A stretch of DNA of 43,408 nt from a virus. Under the pieces are notes generated by a model. The model was not told where the DNA came from, ran no database searches, and worked only from the letters and a program-made list of their open reading frames with translations. A program made the translations under genes and the position numbers. This document shows, one piece after another, positions 7,172 to 43,361 of the stretch. The number at the start of each line of letters is the position of its first letter. The first letter of the stretch is position 1. The DNA is taken from IMG/VR virus record IMGVR_UViG_3300025282_000078, positions 1-43,408 of that record, one strand, 5' to 3'.

Positions 7172-7271
7172 TGAGGGGCCTGGCCGAAGCCAGGCCCAAC
7201 GCCAGGGCTGGTCCCAAGGCCAGCCAATATAAGCGAGAAGGTATAGACAATGGCTCAATATAAAGTGTTAT

Positions 7272-7367
7272 GTGGCTGCGGCCACGAATGCTTACCTCAT
7301 GGAGGCGCTCAAGGTCTCCAAGGAGGACCTAATGCGGGAGCCCGATCCGGAGGAGGTATCGGCATGA
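7272..7367 (+). CDS. Possible micro-ORF upstream of the helicase gene
   Basis: A short frame runs from GTG 7272 (31 aa) or ATG 7299 (22 aa) and stops with a TGA that overlaps the ATG at 7364 as ATGA. The peptide end, MREPDPEEVSA, has coding-like composition. It occupies the same bases as the first 38 codons of a longer reading of the helicase gene from 7250. The ATGA junction and the GGAGGAGG site before 7364 favour this micro-ORF over the N-terminal extension. Confidence 0.35.
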   Translation: MAAATNAYLMEALKVSKEDLMREPDPEEVSA

Positions 7368-9487
7368 CTACGGCGGTAGACCTATTCCCTTTCCAGGATG
7401 CTATCAGTCAATGGGCAGTCAACAAAGGACGGGCGGCTATATTCGCTGATACAGGGTTGGGGAAAACTCGGATGCAGCTTACATGGGCAGAGGCGATGGC
7501 AGGGCGCACGATCATCCTTGCTCCGTTGGCTGTGGCCTTACAGACAGAACGGGAGGCGCAGCTTATTGGCGTTGATGCTGGCTATGCCAGGCATCCCGAC
7601 CAGGTCTCGGCCAGGGTGACTATTGCAAACTATGAAATGGTGGACAGGTTTAACCCCCAAGATTATCAAGCCGTGGTGCTGGACGAGTCTTCCATTTTAA
7701 AAAATGTTGACGCCAAGACTCGGGGTAAATTAACGGGGTTATTTGCCCAGACACCCTATCGCCTCTGTTGCACAGCAACTCCATCACCCAATGATATCGC
7801 TGAGTTGACCAACCACGCCGAATTCCTTGGCATCATGCGCCGGACAGACGTACTCGCCAAGTTCTTTGTCCATGATGATGATGGGTGGAGGCTCAAGGGC
7901 CATGCTCAGGAATCATTCTGGGAGTGGGTATCGACGTGGGCGATGGCTTTGCAGCGGCCATCGGATCTAGGATATACCGATGATGGTTATGACCTCCCGT
8001 CCCTCAACATTCATCATGTAGAAGTAGAGGGTGAAGCGGCTGCCTATGCCCAAGCAACGGGGCAGCTATTCGCCACCGAACTGAGGGGGTTACATGGCCG
8101 TCTAGCGGCCCGAAAGACGACGGTCGAACAGAGGGCGCAAAAGGCCATAGACCTTATCTCTGAACATCCCGACGATCAATGGCTAGTGTGGTGTGGATTG
8201 AACGAAGAAGGACGGCTACTCAAACGATATTTATCCTCTGCCACTCTGATAGAAGGTGCACATTCTTTCGATACTAAAATGGACGCCGCCCGCCAGTTCG
8301 CCGATGGAGGGCTAGGTGTCCTCATTAGCAAGCCGTCGATTATGGGGTTCGGCATGAATTTCCAGAAGGCGCACCGCATGATCTTCCTCGGTATCAATGA
8401 CAGTTTCGAGACTTACTACCAGGCGATCCGGCGATGCTGGCGATTCGGTCAACAAGAGGCCGTTGATGTATATACCATCATGTCAGACCTGGAGCGGCCG
8501 GTTTGGGATAATGTCCAACGCAAGGCAAAAGAACATGAGGGGATGGTGCAAAAAATGATGGGATTTATGTCGGACTTTGGCAAAGCCGCCCTGCATGGTG
8601 CCATCGTCGACCATGAGAGGATGCCAGACGACACGGCCTCCGGACAGGGATGGACATTGCACCGGGGCGACTCGACCGCCGTTCTTCCCACTTTGGAGCC
8701 CGATAGCGTTGATCTGACAGTATTCAGCCCGCCCTTTCTCAGTTTGTTCGTTTACAGCGATGATGACCGAGACCTGGGGAATAGTGATTCCGAGAATGTG
8801 TTCATGGAGCGGTTCCGGCCCATCGTCGCTGAACTCCTGCGGGTCACCAAGCCTGGCCGCCTGGCCGTGGTCCATGTGGCCCAGGTGGCGGCGACATTAG
8901 CCCATGATGGTTTCATAGGGATCAAGGATTTTCGGGGTGCCGTCATCAAGTTGTTTATCGAGGAGCAGTTCCACTATCATGGTGATGTCACCATCGATAA
9001 GAATCCCCAAGCCCAAGCCATCCGCACCCACGCCAAAGCCTTGCTATTCAAGCAGCTCCGCAAGGACGCATCATGGCTACGTCCTGGACTGGCAGACTAT
9101 ATGTTGCTGTTCCGTAAGCCTGGCGAGCCAGCGATACCCATCCAGCCCGATATCTCCAATGAGGAATGGATCGAATGGGCGCACCCCGTCTGGTATGGCA
9201 TGAGAGAAACGGACACGCTAAATGTCGCCCTGGCCCGAGCGGAACGGGATGAACGCCATATCTGCCCCCTTCAGCTACCTGTTATCGAGCGATGTATCCG
9301 ACTCTGGAGCAATCCTGGCGATGTTGTGTTGAGCCCCTTCGCCGGGATCGGTTCCGAAGGCTACGTAGCGTTACAACAAAAAAGACGGTTTGTAGGGGTA
9401 GAGCTAAAGGATTCATACTATCGGGTCGCTTGCCGTAACCTGGACCATGCTGCGACGACCCGACAGGGCCAGATGGAGATGGTATGA
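7364..9487 (+). CDS. SNF2-type helicase fused to an SPPF-type DNA methyltransferase
   Basis: This 707-aa fusion has a superfamily 2 helicase in the first 400 residues: motif I ADTGLGKT at 28-35, motif II DESS at 107-110, TATP at 137-140 and motif VI QAIRRCWRFGQ at 353-363. The C-terminal part is a beta-class amino-methyltransferase with SPPF at 455-458 and the AdoMet motif SPFAGIGSEG at 657-666. SPPF hints at N4-cytosine, but adenine is possible. A start at 7250 would add 38 cysteine-containing residues. I prefer 7364 for its strong ribosome site. It may couple translocation to modification and protect phage DNA. Confidence 0.88.
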   Translation: MTTAVDLFPFQDAISQWAVNKGRAAIFADTGLGKTRMQLTWAEAMAGRTIILAPLAVALQTEREAQLIGVDAGYARHPDQVSARVTIANYEMVDRFNPQDYQAVVLDESSILKNVDAKTRGKLTGLFAQTPYRLCCTATPSPNDIAELTNHAEFLGIMRRTDVLAKFFVHDDDGWRLKGHAQESFWEWVSTWAMALQRPSDLGYTDDGYDLPSLNIHHVEVEGEAAAYAQATGQLFATELRGLHGRLAARKTTVEQRAQKAIDLISEHPDDQWLVWCGLNEEGRLLKRYLSSATLIEGAHSFDTKMDAARQFADGGLGVLISKPSIMGFGMNFQKAHRMIFLGINDSFETYYQAIRRCWRFGQQEAVDVYTIMSDLERPVWDNVQRKAKEHEGMVQKMMGFMSDFGKAALHGAIVDHERMPDDTASGQGWTLHRGDSTAVLPTLEPDSVDLTVFSPPFLSLFVYSDDDRDLGNSDSENVFMERFRPIVAELLRVTKPGRLAVVHVAQVAATLAHDGFIGIKDFRGAVIKLFIEEQFHYHGDVTIDKNPQAQAIRTHAKALLFKQLRKDASWLRPGLADYMLLFRKPGEPAIPIQPDISNEEWIEWAHPVWYGMRETDTLNVALARAERDERHICPLQLPVIERCIRLWSNPGDVVLSPFAGIGSEGYVALQQKRRFVGVELKDSYYRVACRNLDHAATTRQGQMEMV

Positions 9488-40202: not shown

Positions 40203-40298
40203 GTGAAAGTAGTGATTTTGTGCGGAGGGTTTGGAACCAGGCTGCGCGAAGAGACAAAGGATGAGGCGGCGGAGAGGAGAGACCAACAATGGCGGTAA
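40203..40298 (+). pseudogene. N-terminal remnant of an RfbF-type sugar nucleotidyltransferase
   Basis: From GTG 40203, behind AAGGTGATCT, the first 19 residues (KVVILCGGFGTRLREETK) carry the nucleotide-binding signature of glucose-1-phosphate cytidylyltransferases, with the conserved GGxGTRLRxET. The frame then departs and stops after 31 codons. Real enzymes have about 255 residues. It is probably a captured host gene start, inactive as an enzyme. Confidence 0.6.
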
Positions 40299-40682: not shown

Positions 40683-40781
40683 CCTCGTAGCCAATGTATA
40701 CCCAAGGTGTTCCTGCATCATACGTCGATGCTCATCTATCCGGTGGCCTCGTATCTTCCGTTGCTGATATGGGTAAACCAT
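40608..40781 (-). CDS. Degenerate HNH-like fragment, 57 aa
   Basis: The ATG overlaps the stop of the methyltransferase (TAATG). The first 27 residues (KIRGHRIDEHRRMMQEHLG) resemble the start of phage HNH endonucleases, where an H..V/I..H..MEEHLG stretch precedes the HNH core. The core itself is missing, and the rest looks arbitrary. A second leftward frame at 40585-40731, which contains VYIGYEVRIVGNQDPFGTIE, also looks protein-like but has no start. Confidence 0.35.
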   Translation of the reverse strand: MVYPYQQRKIRGHRIDEHRRMMQEHLGYTLATRSGLSAIRTPSAPLRTLEFSMSLST

Positions 40782-41838
40782 TATATCCATCCGCCTTGTC
40801 GTAAAAAGCGTTCCACCACTTTTGGTAGGATGCCATTTCCAAGGGCACTAAATTGACCCACCCTATCGGTAACCCCATCAGCCACTCTACCCACCTCGGG
40901 TTCAGTTTCCCACCAACCTCCCTTGGTAGAGACGATTGGTGGCCTCCCCGTTCCGTTGTGCCCGTCCCTGGTGCGCCCTTGTAGTCCCTGCTGTTCGGCG
41001 TTGCCCATCGTACTACATCCCCCAGACTCTCCCTTGCTGGCCCGTGGGGACCGTCCTGCGCCCGCGGCGTCGGCCCATGCTGAACAGTCTCTCGTAGATT
41101 CATACCCCTCTTGCCATTGCTGTAGGTACTGGTGTTCGCATCGGGTGTAGGCCATAGCCTCACTGCCGTATCCAGCGTCAGACCGAAGCCGTTCCCGTTC
41201 TTCTTCGTTGCTTGGATGGATGCTCTGCGCTCCAACAGCTTCTCCAAATCCTTCTCGCCCTGTTGCCAGTTGGACGGGGTGGGCCACATCCCGGTCGCTG
41301 CTATCGTCCCGAGGCCCGCCGTCCCATCTACATTTTGATTGCTCTTGAATCGTACTCTCCCACTCGTTGTCCGATACATTTGTTCCTCTGGCCGTCCAAG
41401 GCACATCGCATCTGCTGCCTGCGGGGTAGGCAAGGCACCACCACCTATAACGAAGGTGTGGCGCACCGACTTCGGCGGCAGATACGCAGTCCCAGATACA
41501 ATCGTACCCTGCTTCGGCCAACTCCCCGACCACGGTTCCAGCATATCCTGGTTCCACAAGGAGACCTGGTACGTTCTCCAGCACTGCGAATCTCGGTCCC
41601 ACTTCCCGAATGATTCTAAGGGTATCGGGCCAGAGGTTGCGTTCATCCTCTGCTCCTCGTCGTTGCCCTGCGACTGAGTGGGGCTGGCAAGGGAATCCTG
41701 CCGTAATGATGTCAACCAGTCCTCGATACTGGGTGCCGTCGAAGGCACGTATATCGGGGAAGATGGGAGCATCATCGAGGAACCCATCGAGTATCCTCTG
41801 CTGGATAACCGCTTGGCAGTAGGGGTCAATTTCGACAT
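40732..41838 (-). CDS. Overlapping second-frame ORF inside cytosine methyltransferase 1, 368 aa
   Basis: This frame starts at ATG 41838, one base out of phase with the Dcm-like frame, and stays open for 368 codons. It holds several WPTP-like motifs (GMWPTPSN, RLWPTPDA) and GKLNPRWVEWLMGLPIGW, a motif seen in annotated phage proteins. In the C-terminal half it is better conserved against the second copy than the Dcm frame (see finding). It has no ribosome site that I can assign. It may be a true overlapping protein, or it may supply sequence to the enzyme through frameshifting. Confidence 0.5.
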   Translation of the reverse strand: MSKLTPTAKRLSSRGYSMGSSMMLPSSPIYVPSTAPSIEDWLTSLRQDSLASPTQSQGNDEEQRMNATSGPIPLESFGKWDRDSQCWRTYQVSLWNQDMLEPWSGSWPKQGTIVSGTAYLPPKSVRHTFVIGGGALPTPQAADAMCLGRPEEQMYRTTSGRVRFKSNQNVDGTAGLGTIAATGMWPTPSNWQQGEKDLEKLLERRASIQATKKNGNGFGLTLDTAVRLWPTPDANTSTYSNGKRGMNLRETVQHGPTPRAQDGPHGPARESLGDVVRWATPNSRDYKGAPGTGTTERGGHQSSLPREVGGKLNPRWVEWLMGLPIGWVNLVPLEMASYQKWWNAFYDKADGYNGLPISATEDTRPPDR

Positions 41839-41923
41839 AGCCCACCGTCCTTACATCAAGTCCTGCAAGTCGTAACCCGAGGCTGAAACCACCATACCCT
41901 GTGAATAAGGATAGTTCGTTCAT
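40781..41923 (-). CDS. DNA cytosine-5 methyltransferase, copy 1, 380 aa
   Basis: It transfers a methyl group to C5 of cytosine in DNA. Visible motifs are AdoMet motif I FTGYGGFSLG at 7-16, GYVEIDPYCQ near 28, the catalytic GFPCQPHS with C79, ENV at 116-118, HLRYRWW near 150, and the final ALGNGILP near 360. The region between 155 and 335, where the target-recognition domain should lie, is polar and low-complexity (VAHPVQL, MAYTRCEH, MGNAEQQ). The start overlaps the zinc-ribbon stop (ATGA). The likely role is protection from host restriction. Confidence 0.88.
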   Translation of the reverse strand: MNELSLFTGYGGFSLGLRLAGLDVRTVGYVEIDPYCQAVIQQRILDGFLDDAPIFPDIRAFDGTQYRGLVDIITAGFPCQPHSVAGQRRGAEDERNLWPDTLRIIREVGPRFAVLENVPGLLVEPGYAGTVVGELAEAGYDCIWDCVSAAEVGAPHLRYRWWCLAYPAGSRCDVPWTARGTNVSDNEWESTIQEQSKCRWDGGPRDDSSDRDVAHPVQLATGREGFGEAVGAQSIHPSNEEERERLRSDAGYGSEAMAYTRCEHQYLQQWQEGYESTRDCSAWADAAGAGRSPRASKGESGGCSTMGNAEQQGLQGRTRDGHNGTGRPPIVSTKGGWWETEPEVGRVADGVTDRVGQFSALGNGILPKVVERFLRQGGWI

Positions 41924-42162
41924 CTAAGGATTAGATCGACACCATGTTGCCATCCAAAGGACATCCGACGTATCAATTCCTTGCCAGGTTCTGGCGTTGG
42001 TAGCATGTCGCAAACACAACCTTCCATGCGAGGGATAAATTTTAAACAGGCTGGGCATTGGTTGTTTTCAGAATCGTGGACTAGCTCGTTGCATTTCTTG
42101 CAATAGAAGTATTCTGCGTTTTCGCACTCGTTGCTATGGTTATCGGTATAATACCCACTCAT
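41920..42162 (-). CDS. Zinc-ribbon protein paired with methyltransferase 1, 80 aa
   Basis: CKKC and CPAC, 15 residues apart, make a zinc ribbon after an acidic N terminus. The C-terminal part has another CVC. AGGAG lies before the ATG, and the stop overlaps the methyltransferase start. A near-identical N-terminal copy lies at the left end of the window. The strict linkage suggests that the protein works with, or is co-regulated with, the methyltransferase. Confidence 0.75.
   Translation of the reverse strand: MSGYYTDNHSNECENAEYFYCKKCNELVHDSENNQCPACLKFIPRMEGCVCDMLPTPEPGKELIRRMSFGWQHGVDLILR
42051..42149. repeat. 99-bp exact direct repeat, copy 2
   Basis: Identical to bases 1-99. It lies inside the zinc-ribbon gene and covers most of its N-terminal half. 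Confidence 0.9.
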
Positions 42163-42198
42163 TTTTGACTCCTATGGATATATGTGATGTGCCGGTAG

Positions 42199-42510
42199 TT
42201 ATTGCCTCTCTCCATCTGCATGTAGCCTGCTAAGATGATGAGGAGTAGGGGGGCCGTTCCCAGGGGTACGTAGTGACTCTCCTTGAGATTGGACCTCCAA
42301 TTCTCCAGGGGGTGGGAATGTTCTAGCCTCACAATAGGCGCAGTTACCTACAAGACCGATGCACCCGCAGGTACCACACATCACGTACTGAGGGGGATCT
42401 TCCTCAGCGTCGATCAGACATTGTAGCATGAGTTCTTTGAGTTCGTTACGCCCCCAGCTGGTCTTCTGGGCTAGGCGTTCCAGTAGTAGCTTCCATGCTC
42501 GTTGGTACAA
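42199..42510 (-). CDS. Small protein with central zinc ribbon, 103 aa
   Basis: A helical N terminus (WKLLLERLAQKTSWGRNELK) is followed by CGTCGCIGLVGNCAYC, a compact zinc ribbon, and a disordered tail. It starts at TTG 42510 behind GGAGGGAGCCC, 11 bp after the methyltransferase stop. It lies between the two methyltransferase units and is not related to the other zinc-ribbon protein in sequence. The function is unknown. Confidence 0.65.
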   Translation of the reverse strand: MYQRAWKLLLERLAQKTSWGRNELKELMLQCLIDAEEDPPQYVMCGTCGCIGLVGNCAYCEARTFPPPGELEVQSQGESLRTPGNGPPTPHHLSRLHADGERQ

Positions 42511-43267
42511 GGGCTCCCTCCTTAGAAATTCTCCTCAAGAAACCTCGCTGCCACTGACGGAACGATCCCGTTGCCAAGGGTTCTAAGTCGGTCCACCCGA
42601 TGGGCACCCCCATCAACCACTCGACCCACTGCGGGTTCAGCTTTCCACCAGCTTGGGTTGGTAAGTCTGGGGTGTGGTGTTGGTGTTCGGCTACTCCCCC
42701 GGGACTCCGAGAGTCTCTGGCTTTGGGAGTGGTCCACATCTTGACTGCTGTGTCCAGAGTTAGACCGAAACCATTCCCGTTGCGACCCTTGGCCTTCTCC
42801 CTGATCCTGCGCCGCCTTAAGGTCTCTAGGTTCTCGTCCTGCACCCATCTGCTGGGACTGGGCCAGACACCACCACCTCTTCCTGAGATGAGGGGCTCCT
42901 GTTTCGGCAGCAGATACAACTCCCCAGATACAGTCATACCCCGCTTCGGAAAGCTGCCCGACCACGGTTCCCCCATACCCTCGGGAGAGGATGCCCGGGA
43001 CGTTCTCCAGTAGGACGTACTCCGGTCCCACCTCGCTGATGACTCTGAGGGTGTCGGGCCACAGGTTCCGCTTATCCGATTCTCCCTGCTGCCTTCCTGC
43101 AACAGAGTGGGGCTGGCACGGGAAACCTCCCGTAATGATGTCCACCACTCCTCGACACTGGCTACCGTCGAAGGCACATATATCGGGGAAGATGGGGGCA
43201 TCATCGAGGAACCCATCTCGTATCCTCTGCTGGATAACCGCTTGGCAGTAGGGGTCAATTTCGACAT
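42446..43267 (-). CDS. Overlapping second-frame ORF inside cytosine methyltransferase 2, 273 aa
   Basis: It is the counterpart of the 368-aa second-frame ORF in copy 1, with the same start MSKLTPTAKRLSSRGY at an ATG, and with VWPSPSRW, NGNGFGLTLDTAV and GGKLNPQWVEWLMGVPIGW. It is about 95 residues shorter because the variable region has fewer WPTP units. Its end runs past the methyltransferase stop into the start of the next gene. Confidence 0.5.
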   Translation of the reverse strand: MSKLTPTAKRLSSRGYEMGSSMMPPSSPIYVPSTVASVEEWWTSLREVSRASPTLLQEGSRENRISGTCGPTPSESSARWDRSTSYWRTSRASSPEGMGEPWSGSFPKRGMTVSGELYLLPKQEPLISGRGGGVWPSPSRWVQDENLETLRRRRIREKAKGRNGNGFGLTLDTAVKMWTTPKARDSRSPGGVAEHQHHTPDLPTQAGGKLNPQWVEWLMGVPIGWTDLEPLATGSFRQWQRGFLRRISKEGALVPTSMEATTGTPSPEDQLGA

Positions 43268-43361
43268 AACCCACCGTCCTTATGATAGTAGGTAAAGAAA
43301 GAGTCAGGTGGAGGCCTAGACTGAACCCACCGTAGCCAGAAAATAGGGATAACTCATTCAC
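42522..43361 (-). CDS. DNA cytosine-5 methyltransferase, copy 2, 279 aa
   Basis: It has the same motifs as copy 1: FSGYGGFSLG at 7-16, EIDPYCQ, GFPCQPHS with C82, ENV, HLRKRWW and TLGNGIVP near the end. The variable region between 160 and 240 is about 100 residues shorter, so the target sequence may differ from that of copy 1 or the recognition domain may be reduced. AAAGGAGGAG precedes the ATG. It is downstream of the truncated zinc-ribbon copy if the ends are joined. Confidence 0.87.
   Translation of the reverse strand: MNELSLFSGYGGFSLGLHLTLSLPTIIRTVGYVEIDPYCQAVIQQRIRDGFLDDAPIFPDICAFDGSQCRGVVDIITGGFPCQPHSVAGRQQGESDKRNLWPDTLRVISEVGPEYVLLENVPGILSRGYGGTVVGQLSEAGYDCIWGVVSAAETGAPHLRKRWWCLAQSQQMGAGREPRDLKAAQDQGEGQGSQREWFRSNSGHSSQDVDHSQSQRLSESRGSSRTPTPHPRLTNPSWWKAEPAVGRVVDGGAHRVDRLRTLGNGIVPSVAARFLEENF

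Follow-up and report, generated by a model that had tools for sequence, protein, structure and literature searches.

In cytosine-5 DNA methyltransferases (C5-MTases), the small domain, made up of the target-recognition domain and motif IX, sits between motifs VIII and X of the large domain. In the natural split enzyme M.AquI, one part comprises motifs I–VIII with a portion of the variable region, and the other the rest of that region with motifs IX and X. M.EcoHK31I belongs to a restriction-modification system; its small subunit is read from a different frame inside the large-subunit gene and, to go by the title of Lee 1995, two proteins are reportedly required in vitro. The large subunit of this natural two-protein C5-MTase (target YGGCCR) carries motifs I–VIII and X, motif IX stands alone in the smaller polypeptide, and the prediction places the recognition domain in the large subunit (PMC3404938). 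A cut that separates motif VIII from the recognition domain, whether natural or artificial, still allows C5-MTases to reassemble (PMC5944983, PMC3404938). Here we analyze two loci on the minus strand of IMG/VR virus record IMGVR_UViG_3300025282_000078 (positions 1 to 43,408; this whole stretch of 43,408 nt is called the window), in a phage context of large terminase, portal, major head and tape-measure genes. Each locus is a Dcm-like gene (copies A and B) whose Dcm frame (frame 0) encodes a protein that we call alpha and whose +1 frame encodes a protein that we call beta. Very probably, each locus encodes a split C5-MTase in two overlapping frames of one message.

The window copies share with M.EcoHK31I the division into a large protein with motifs I–VIII and X and a small one with motif IX, a likeness compared by description only, with motif IX assigned by position and from a one-chain relative, locus L300. 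They differ from it in that beta carries the constraint in the middle region, where alpha is near-neutral (nonsynonymous/synonymous ratios of 0.46 for beta and 0.83 for alpha), in that the WPTP-type modules of L300 lie between motifs VIII and IX, and in that the genes are found in a phage and not in a restriction-modification system. Plasmid searches for M.EcoHK31I gave no clear case. Out-of-frame reading frames inside phage methylase genes are also known as HNH insertions of the ShiLan type (PMC11855218); those, however, represent a mobile homing element in an insert, whereas here the second frame spans the gene itself and has no nuclease match.

Alpha matches phrog_363 and beta matches phrog_1008, both labelled DNA methyltransferase, though the labels do not tell that the two families share the same DNA. 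The overlap has been annotated before in individual phages: in Paenibacillus phage Diva (gp49/gp50), gp50 is annotated as ‘g49 internal gene’, lies in the +1 frame and is assigned as a DNA methyltransferase. A search of two P. larvae phage genome papers yielded no analysis of the function of this overlap or of selection on it, and no phage description of the alpha/beta overlap was found in the literature searched, which left most subscription journals outside. The first-pass annotation gave the second protein no role; most probably this protein forms the remaining half of the enzyme. The new elements are the breadth of the arrangement, the dual coding of motifs IX and X and the evidence of recognition in the second frame.

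Division of the motifs between two frames

The match of alpha to PF00145 (copy A, 4e-37, residues 2–191 only; copy B, 1.3e-36, residues 2–182) ends just past motif VIII, and motifs I, IV (PCQ), VI (ENV) and VIII are present in order. An AlphaFold model of copy B alpha, confident to about residue 170 and of low confidence at residues 207–265, matches the fold of the M.HhaI catalytic domain in Foldseek. Motif X (GN-A/G-V-P) is found in frame 0 at the alpha C-terminus, as LGNGILP in copy A and LGNGIVP in copy B; the first-pass annotation had described LGNG as conserved by silent changes in the Dcm frame, and LGNGI is indeed kept with the third-position changes GGA/GGC, AAT/AAC and GGC/GGG. The target-recognition domain and motif IX are not in the alpha chain, whose middle is near-neutral, and a motif IX-like sequence occurs only in the +1 frame. 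Both beta frames begin MSKLTPTAKRLSSRGY and have GGKLNPxWVEWLMG in common; identity between copies A and B is 55% for the beta proteins and 63% for the alpha proteins.

Relatives were collected from IMG/VR by means of the Dcm half, from annotated phages, and from genomes and viral contigs by the DNA pattern of the second-frame motif alone. These locus sets overlap in part and include near-copies; the alpha-found set holds 144 distinct alpha proteins. Layouts were scored with short profiles for motifs I–VIII, motif X and the second-frame LNPxWVEWLMG.

In class I, to which both window copies belong, the same nucleotides encode motif X (frame 0) and LNPxWVEWLMG (+1 frame), the two profile matches lying mostly 11 nt apart. 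This conserved dual coding was seen in 172 loci found by alpha and, among loci chosen by the motif IX DNA pattern alone, in 62 of 79 bacterial or archaeal loci (from many phyla) and 100 of 120 viral ones. The number of phages and prophages with the two-frame layout is well above a hundred. Gene 58 of phage N15 (L090), a classic cytosine methylase, has the same layout. At L042, the class I alpha has an HNH-like extension at its C-terminus.

In class II, alpha stops after motif VIII; motif IX and, downstream of it (126–477 nt in the subset measured), motif X are in the +1 protein. There are 11 such loci in the alpha-found set and four in each of the sets selected by motif IX (examples are L010, L012, L017, L025, L053, L056, L289 and others). 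Their +1 proteins match phrog_1008 as well as the C-terminal part of phrog_363 (L001, 4e-12; L056, 1.5e-4). Class II shares the motif division of M.AquI, with motifs IX and X in one protein; unlike M.AquI, the window copies keep motif X in the alpha frame on the DNA of motif IX, and their genes overlap over most of their length.

A third layout joins everything in one chain. The protein of L300 (minus strand of the locus; actinobacterial contig RFZO01000033.1) has 714 residues with motifs I–VIII, a segment like the start of beta, six WPTP-type modules, motif IX and motif X, in this order. An in-frame fusion of Dcm and the WPTP segment, which the first-pass annotation proposed to look for in other phages, thus exists, but in a bacterial contig, not in a phage. 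Classical Dcms (L076–L086), with LTPRECWRLQGFP in frame, lose the +1 frame after about 175 codons and were used as controls. No beta gene free of alpha was found among the 199 loci chosen by motif IX alone, save at contig ends and in the remnant L272.

In a tree of the N-terminal domain, eight changes are needed for nine class II rows, so layouts must have switched repeatedly or C-terminal cassettes been exchanged, in a direction that the tree does not give. It is possible that a class II ancestor underwent an out-of-frame deletion between motifs IX and X, which would bring motif X into the alpha frame and yield class I in a single step; a change the other way, through insertion or cassette exchange, fits the tree equally well.

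Frames are shifted in a small number of loci (L146, L161, L099, L209, L305, L311, L356, L357 and L389). Compared with L097 (SG4), L099 and L209 (mycobacteriophages of the Llama and Ochi17 type) show an apparent frame shift that splits alpha (gp74/gp75) and moves motifs X and IX to other frames. Runs of 9–15 Gs are found inside the overlap, after motif VIII in L305, L311, L355, L356 and L357 and at motif IV in L314, L325, L351, L389 and L409. The length of the run after motif VIII varies among close relatives (12, 13, 14 and 15) and alters which frames are joined, like slippage phase variation.

A second frame open and under selection

The +1 frames of 368 and 273 codons, with the same start and motifs, that had been noticed in both Dcm-like genes are correct in coordinates and length, and their openness exceeds chance. 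Shuffling the synonymous codons of the Dcm frame gave a mean of 7.8 stops in the +1 frame of copy A (0 of 500 shuffles as low as the observed zero) and 4.5 in that of copy B (1 of 500 as low as the observed zero), for stretches that had been picked for their openness. For a fixed region, from Dcm codon 50 to the end, 63 loci together had 140 stops in the +1 frame versus 356 expected (the minimum of 500 shuffles was 324), and 93 of these 140 come from six classical Dcms that served as controls. Stops in the +2 frame of the same loci were as expected (876 versus 849). Nearly every non-classical Dcm has an open +1 frame along the gene but no open +2 frame.

Between 41161–41199 and 42743–42781 both beta frames read NGNGFGLTLDTAV, and the seven nucleotide differences, as first noticed, all fall on third positions of beta codons and therefore on first positions of the Dcm frame. 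For the family, nonsynonymous/synonymous ratios were determined in 49 disjoint class I pairs, each site being counted by its effect on both frames; the counting is without correction for multiple hits, and sites silent in both frames form a small, noisy class. The ratios for alpha and beta were 0.23 and 0.59 in motifs I–VIII, 0.83 (0.77–0.91) and 0.46 (0.43–0.50) in the middle region, and 0.44 and 0.40 in the 3′ block, while the +2 control frame gave 1.20, 1.27 and 1.09 for the three regions. As a sole control the +2 frame proved too generous. In classical one-frame Dcms, counted in the same way, the non-coding +1 frame has a baseline not of 1 but of 0.72 (motifs I–VIII) and 0.77 (after motif VIII), with alpha at 0.47 after motif VIII; this lower baseline of 0.72–0.77 weakened the claim for the catalytic part. 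Judged against it, the constraint on beta is clear both in the middle region and at the 3′ end, and alpha is relaxed in the middle. The proposed shift of constraint between frames is borne out by the pairs, with alpha constrained on motifs I–VIII, beta in the middle and both at the 3′ end. Where a comparison of many homologs, set in advance as the refuting test, could have revealed a second frame often broken and with no excess of silent change, the outcome was the opposite, a frame both open and constrained.

Codon choice in alpha gives a similar picture. In its GRVADGVA block, whose tested form is carried by 83 of the 144 proteins, the synonymous codons are almost all those that beta needs for WVEWLMGWP: GGT in 80 of 83 (background 17%), GCT in 66 of 66 (18%), GGG in 82 of 83 (18%), GTG in 81 of 81 (35%) and GCC in 80 of 80 (31%). 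The codons of motif IV, in contrast to this frozen block, are spread.

The start signals are conserved too, the codon choices AAT, TAT and AGG/AGA all exceeding background. Many relatives have the sequence ATGAATG, in which the alpha and beta starts lie 4 nt apart and share one upstream ribosome-binding site; elsewhere, as in both window copies, the beta start is an ATG within the GYVE of alpha, preceded by an internal AAGGA or GGAGG. Codon 2 of alpha is AAT in 99 of 112 cases (background 46%), the overall count being the fair figure since the ATGAATG group is itself defined by this codon. Among loci without the ATGAATG start, the tyrosine of GYVE is encoded by TAT in 28 of 33 (background 38%).

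The proposed enzyme and its alternatives

The split follows the boundary between motif VIII and the small domain, it resembles M.EcoHK31I and M.AquI, and cut C5-MTases reassemble, which together argue for a two-frame split methyltransferase in which beta chooses the target. Alpha would be the large catalytic domain, with S-adenosylmethionine-binding and catalytic motifs I–VIII, a loosely constrained linker in place of the recognition domain, and motif X. Beta, starting at its own ATG inside alpha, would be the small domain, with WPTP-type recognition modules and then motif IX (LNPxWVEWLMGxPxGW). Together, alpha and beta would form a single enzyme for the methylation of phage DNA, probably as a defence against host restriction, a protective role suggested by the phage gene context, which includes a putative helicase-methyltransferase gene. 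The tandem copies differ in their beta modules and would probably differ in target sequence. We infer translation of both frames, assembly, activity, specificity and the role against restriction. A wider proposal is tentative, and we lean slightly against it as a whole: a widespread and probably ancient nested pair, with motif IX and the recognition domain on the same nucleotides as motif X, would have its target set by a variable number of WPTP modules, and tandem copies would methylate different sites.

Several observations weigh against reading beta as the small domain. Beta has no sequence match in Pfam, NCBIfam or PDB, and its AlphaFold model is poor (predicted local distance difference test, pLDDT, of 60) and gave no match in a fold search, which is uninformative for such a model. 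Its motif IX is assigned by position, by the L300 chain and by the layouts with motif X downstream, with no significant profile match to motif IX of the LTPRE type. The opening part of the beta domain (FARFD...SW...WP..G) shows weak homology to L300 (7 bits), and within the catalytic part the selection signal of beta is modest (0.59, with the control at 0.72).

Such a lack of annotated domain and fold match in beta alone is what one would expect of a separate protein, unconnected with methylation (for example, DNA-binding or anti-defence), overprinted on a Dcm gene. We consider this very unlikely: alpha has no motif IX and no constrained recognition domain in its own frame, motif X lies within the +1 protein itself in over a dozen relatives, L300 holds both parts as one chain, and, contig ends and the remnant L272 apart, no alpha-free beta gene was seen among the 199 loci chosen by motif IX alone. 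It is hardly credible that the +1 frame is a mere by-product, kept open by codon bias and a conserved Dcm protein, with no second protein made. This reading is already contradicted by the absence of stops far past the codon-shuffle expectation, by selection in the middle region on the +1 frame and not on alpha, and by the frozen synonymous codons and conserved start signals. It gains something from the classical Dcms, which have some 170 codons of open +1 frame under the catalytic part, and from a profile of the beta N-terminus, since this finds a match in L300 too, in the +1 frame beneath the catalytic motifs; the N-terminal similarity is therefore partly a shadow of alpha, and for this reason the profile was dropped as evidence.

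Programmed ribosomal or transcriptional frameshifting could instead join the N-terminal part of alpha to the C-terminal part of beta, making one long Dcm with recognition domain and motif IX in place of free beta or beside it. Alpha is fused in frame to the end of beta in L146, L161, L356 and L357, and slippage is likely in the several relatives with runs of 8–15 Gs in the overlap; most loci and both window copies have no such runs, beta has conserved start signals of its own, and a class I fusion would be without motif X. As the general explanation, frameshifting is thus quite improbable, and a split enzyme of two separately started proteins remains our preferred reading.

Features of the window and consequences

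Table 1. Features of the two methyltransferase loci (positions in the window)
Feature	Position	Strand	Description
Copy A alpha	40781..41923	−	380 aa; C5-MTase motifs I–VIII, linker, motif X (LGNGILP); no motif IX in frame 0
Copy A beta	40732..41838	−	368 aa; WPTP-type modules and motif IX-like LNPRWVEWLMGLPIGW; phrog_1008 4e-27
Copy B alpha	42522..43361	−	279 aa, GTG start; PF00145; AlphaFold model compared with M.HhaI
Copy B beta	42446..43267	−	273 aa; phrog_1008 1e-17
Copy A dual-coded block	40804..40917	−	Putative beta motif IX (40867–40905) and alpha motif X LGNGILP (40823–40843) on the same DNA in two frames; mapped from L007, identical sequence
Copy B dual-coded block	42558..42640	−	Beta LNPQWVEWLMGVP (42602–42640) and alpha LGNGIVP (42558–42578)
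Copy A middle region	40906..41429	−	Near-neutral linker in alpha; constrained WPTP-type putative recognition modules in beta; from family statistics
Copy A beta ribosome-binding region	41839..41852	−	AAGGACGGTGGGCT ahead of ATG; within alpha V-R-T-V-G-Y
Copy B beta ribosome-binding region	43268..43281	−	AAGGACGGTGGGTT ahead of ATG

Two small cysteine-rich, zinc-ribbon-like open reading frames (ORFs; 41920–42162 and 42199–42510, minus strand) lie between the two methyltransferase loci on the same strand. A short ORF at 40203–40298 (plus strand), VKVVILCGGFGTRLREETKDE, resembles the start of a sugar nucleotidyltransferase and ends after about 30 codons; it is possibly a remnant. A 745-aa protein encoded at 7250–9487 (plus strand) matches DNA helicase and DNA methyltransferase families and is possibly a further methyltransferase of the phage.

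If the split is real, phage genes annotated as a solitary Dcm, that of N15 among them, would be half-enzymes, the half that chooses the target lying in the other frame and usually unannotated. Recoding of the annotated gene for expression would then abolish activity without visible cause. A nested pair whose products make one enzyme, and which occurs in three natural layouts among hundreds of homologs, would make the origin and persistence of overlapping genes directly testable.

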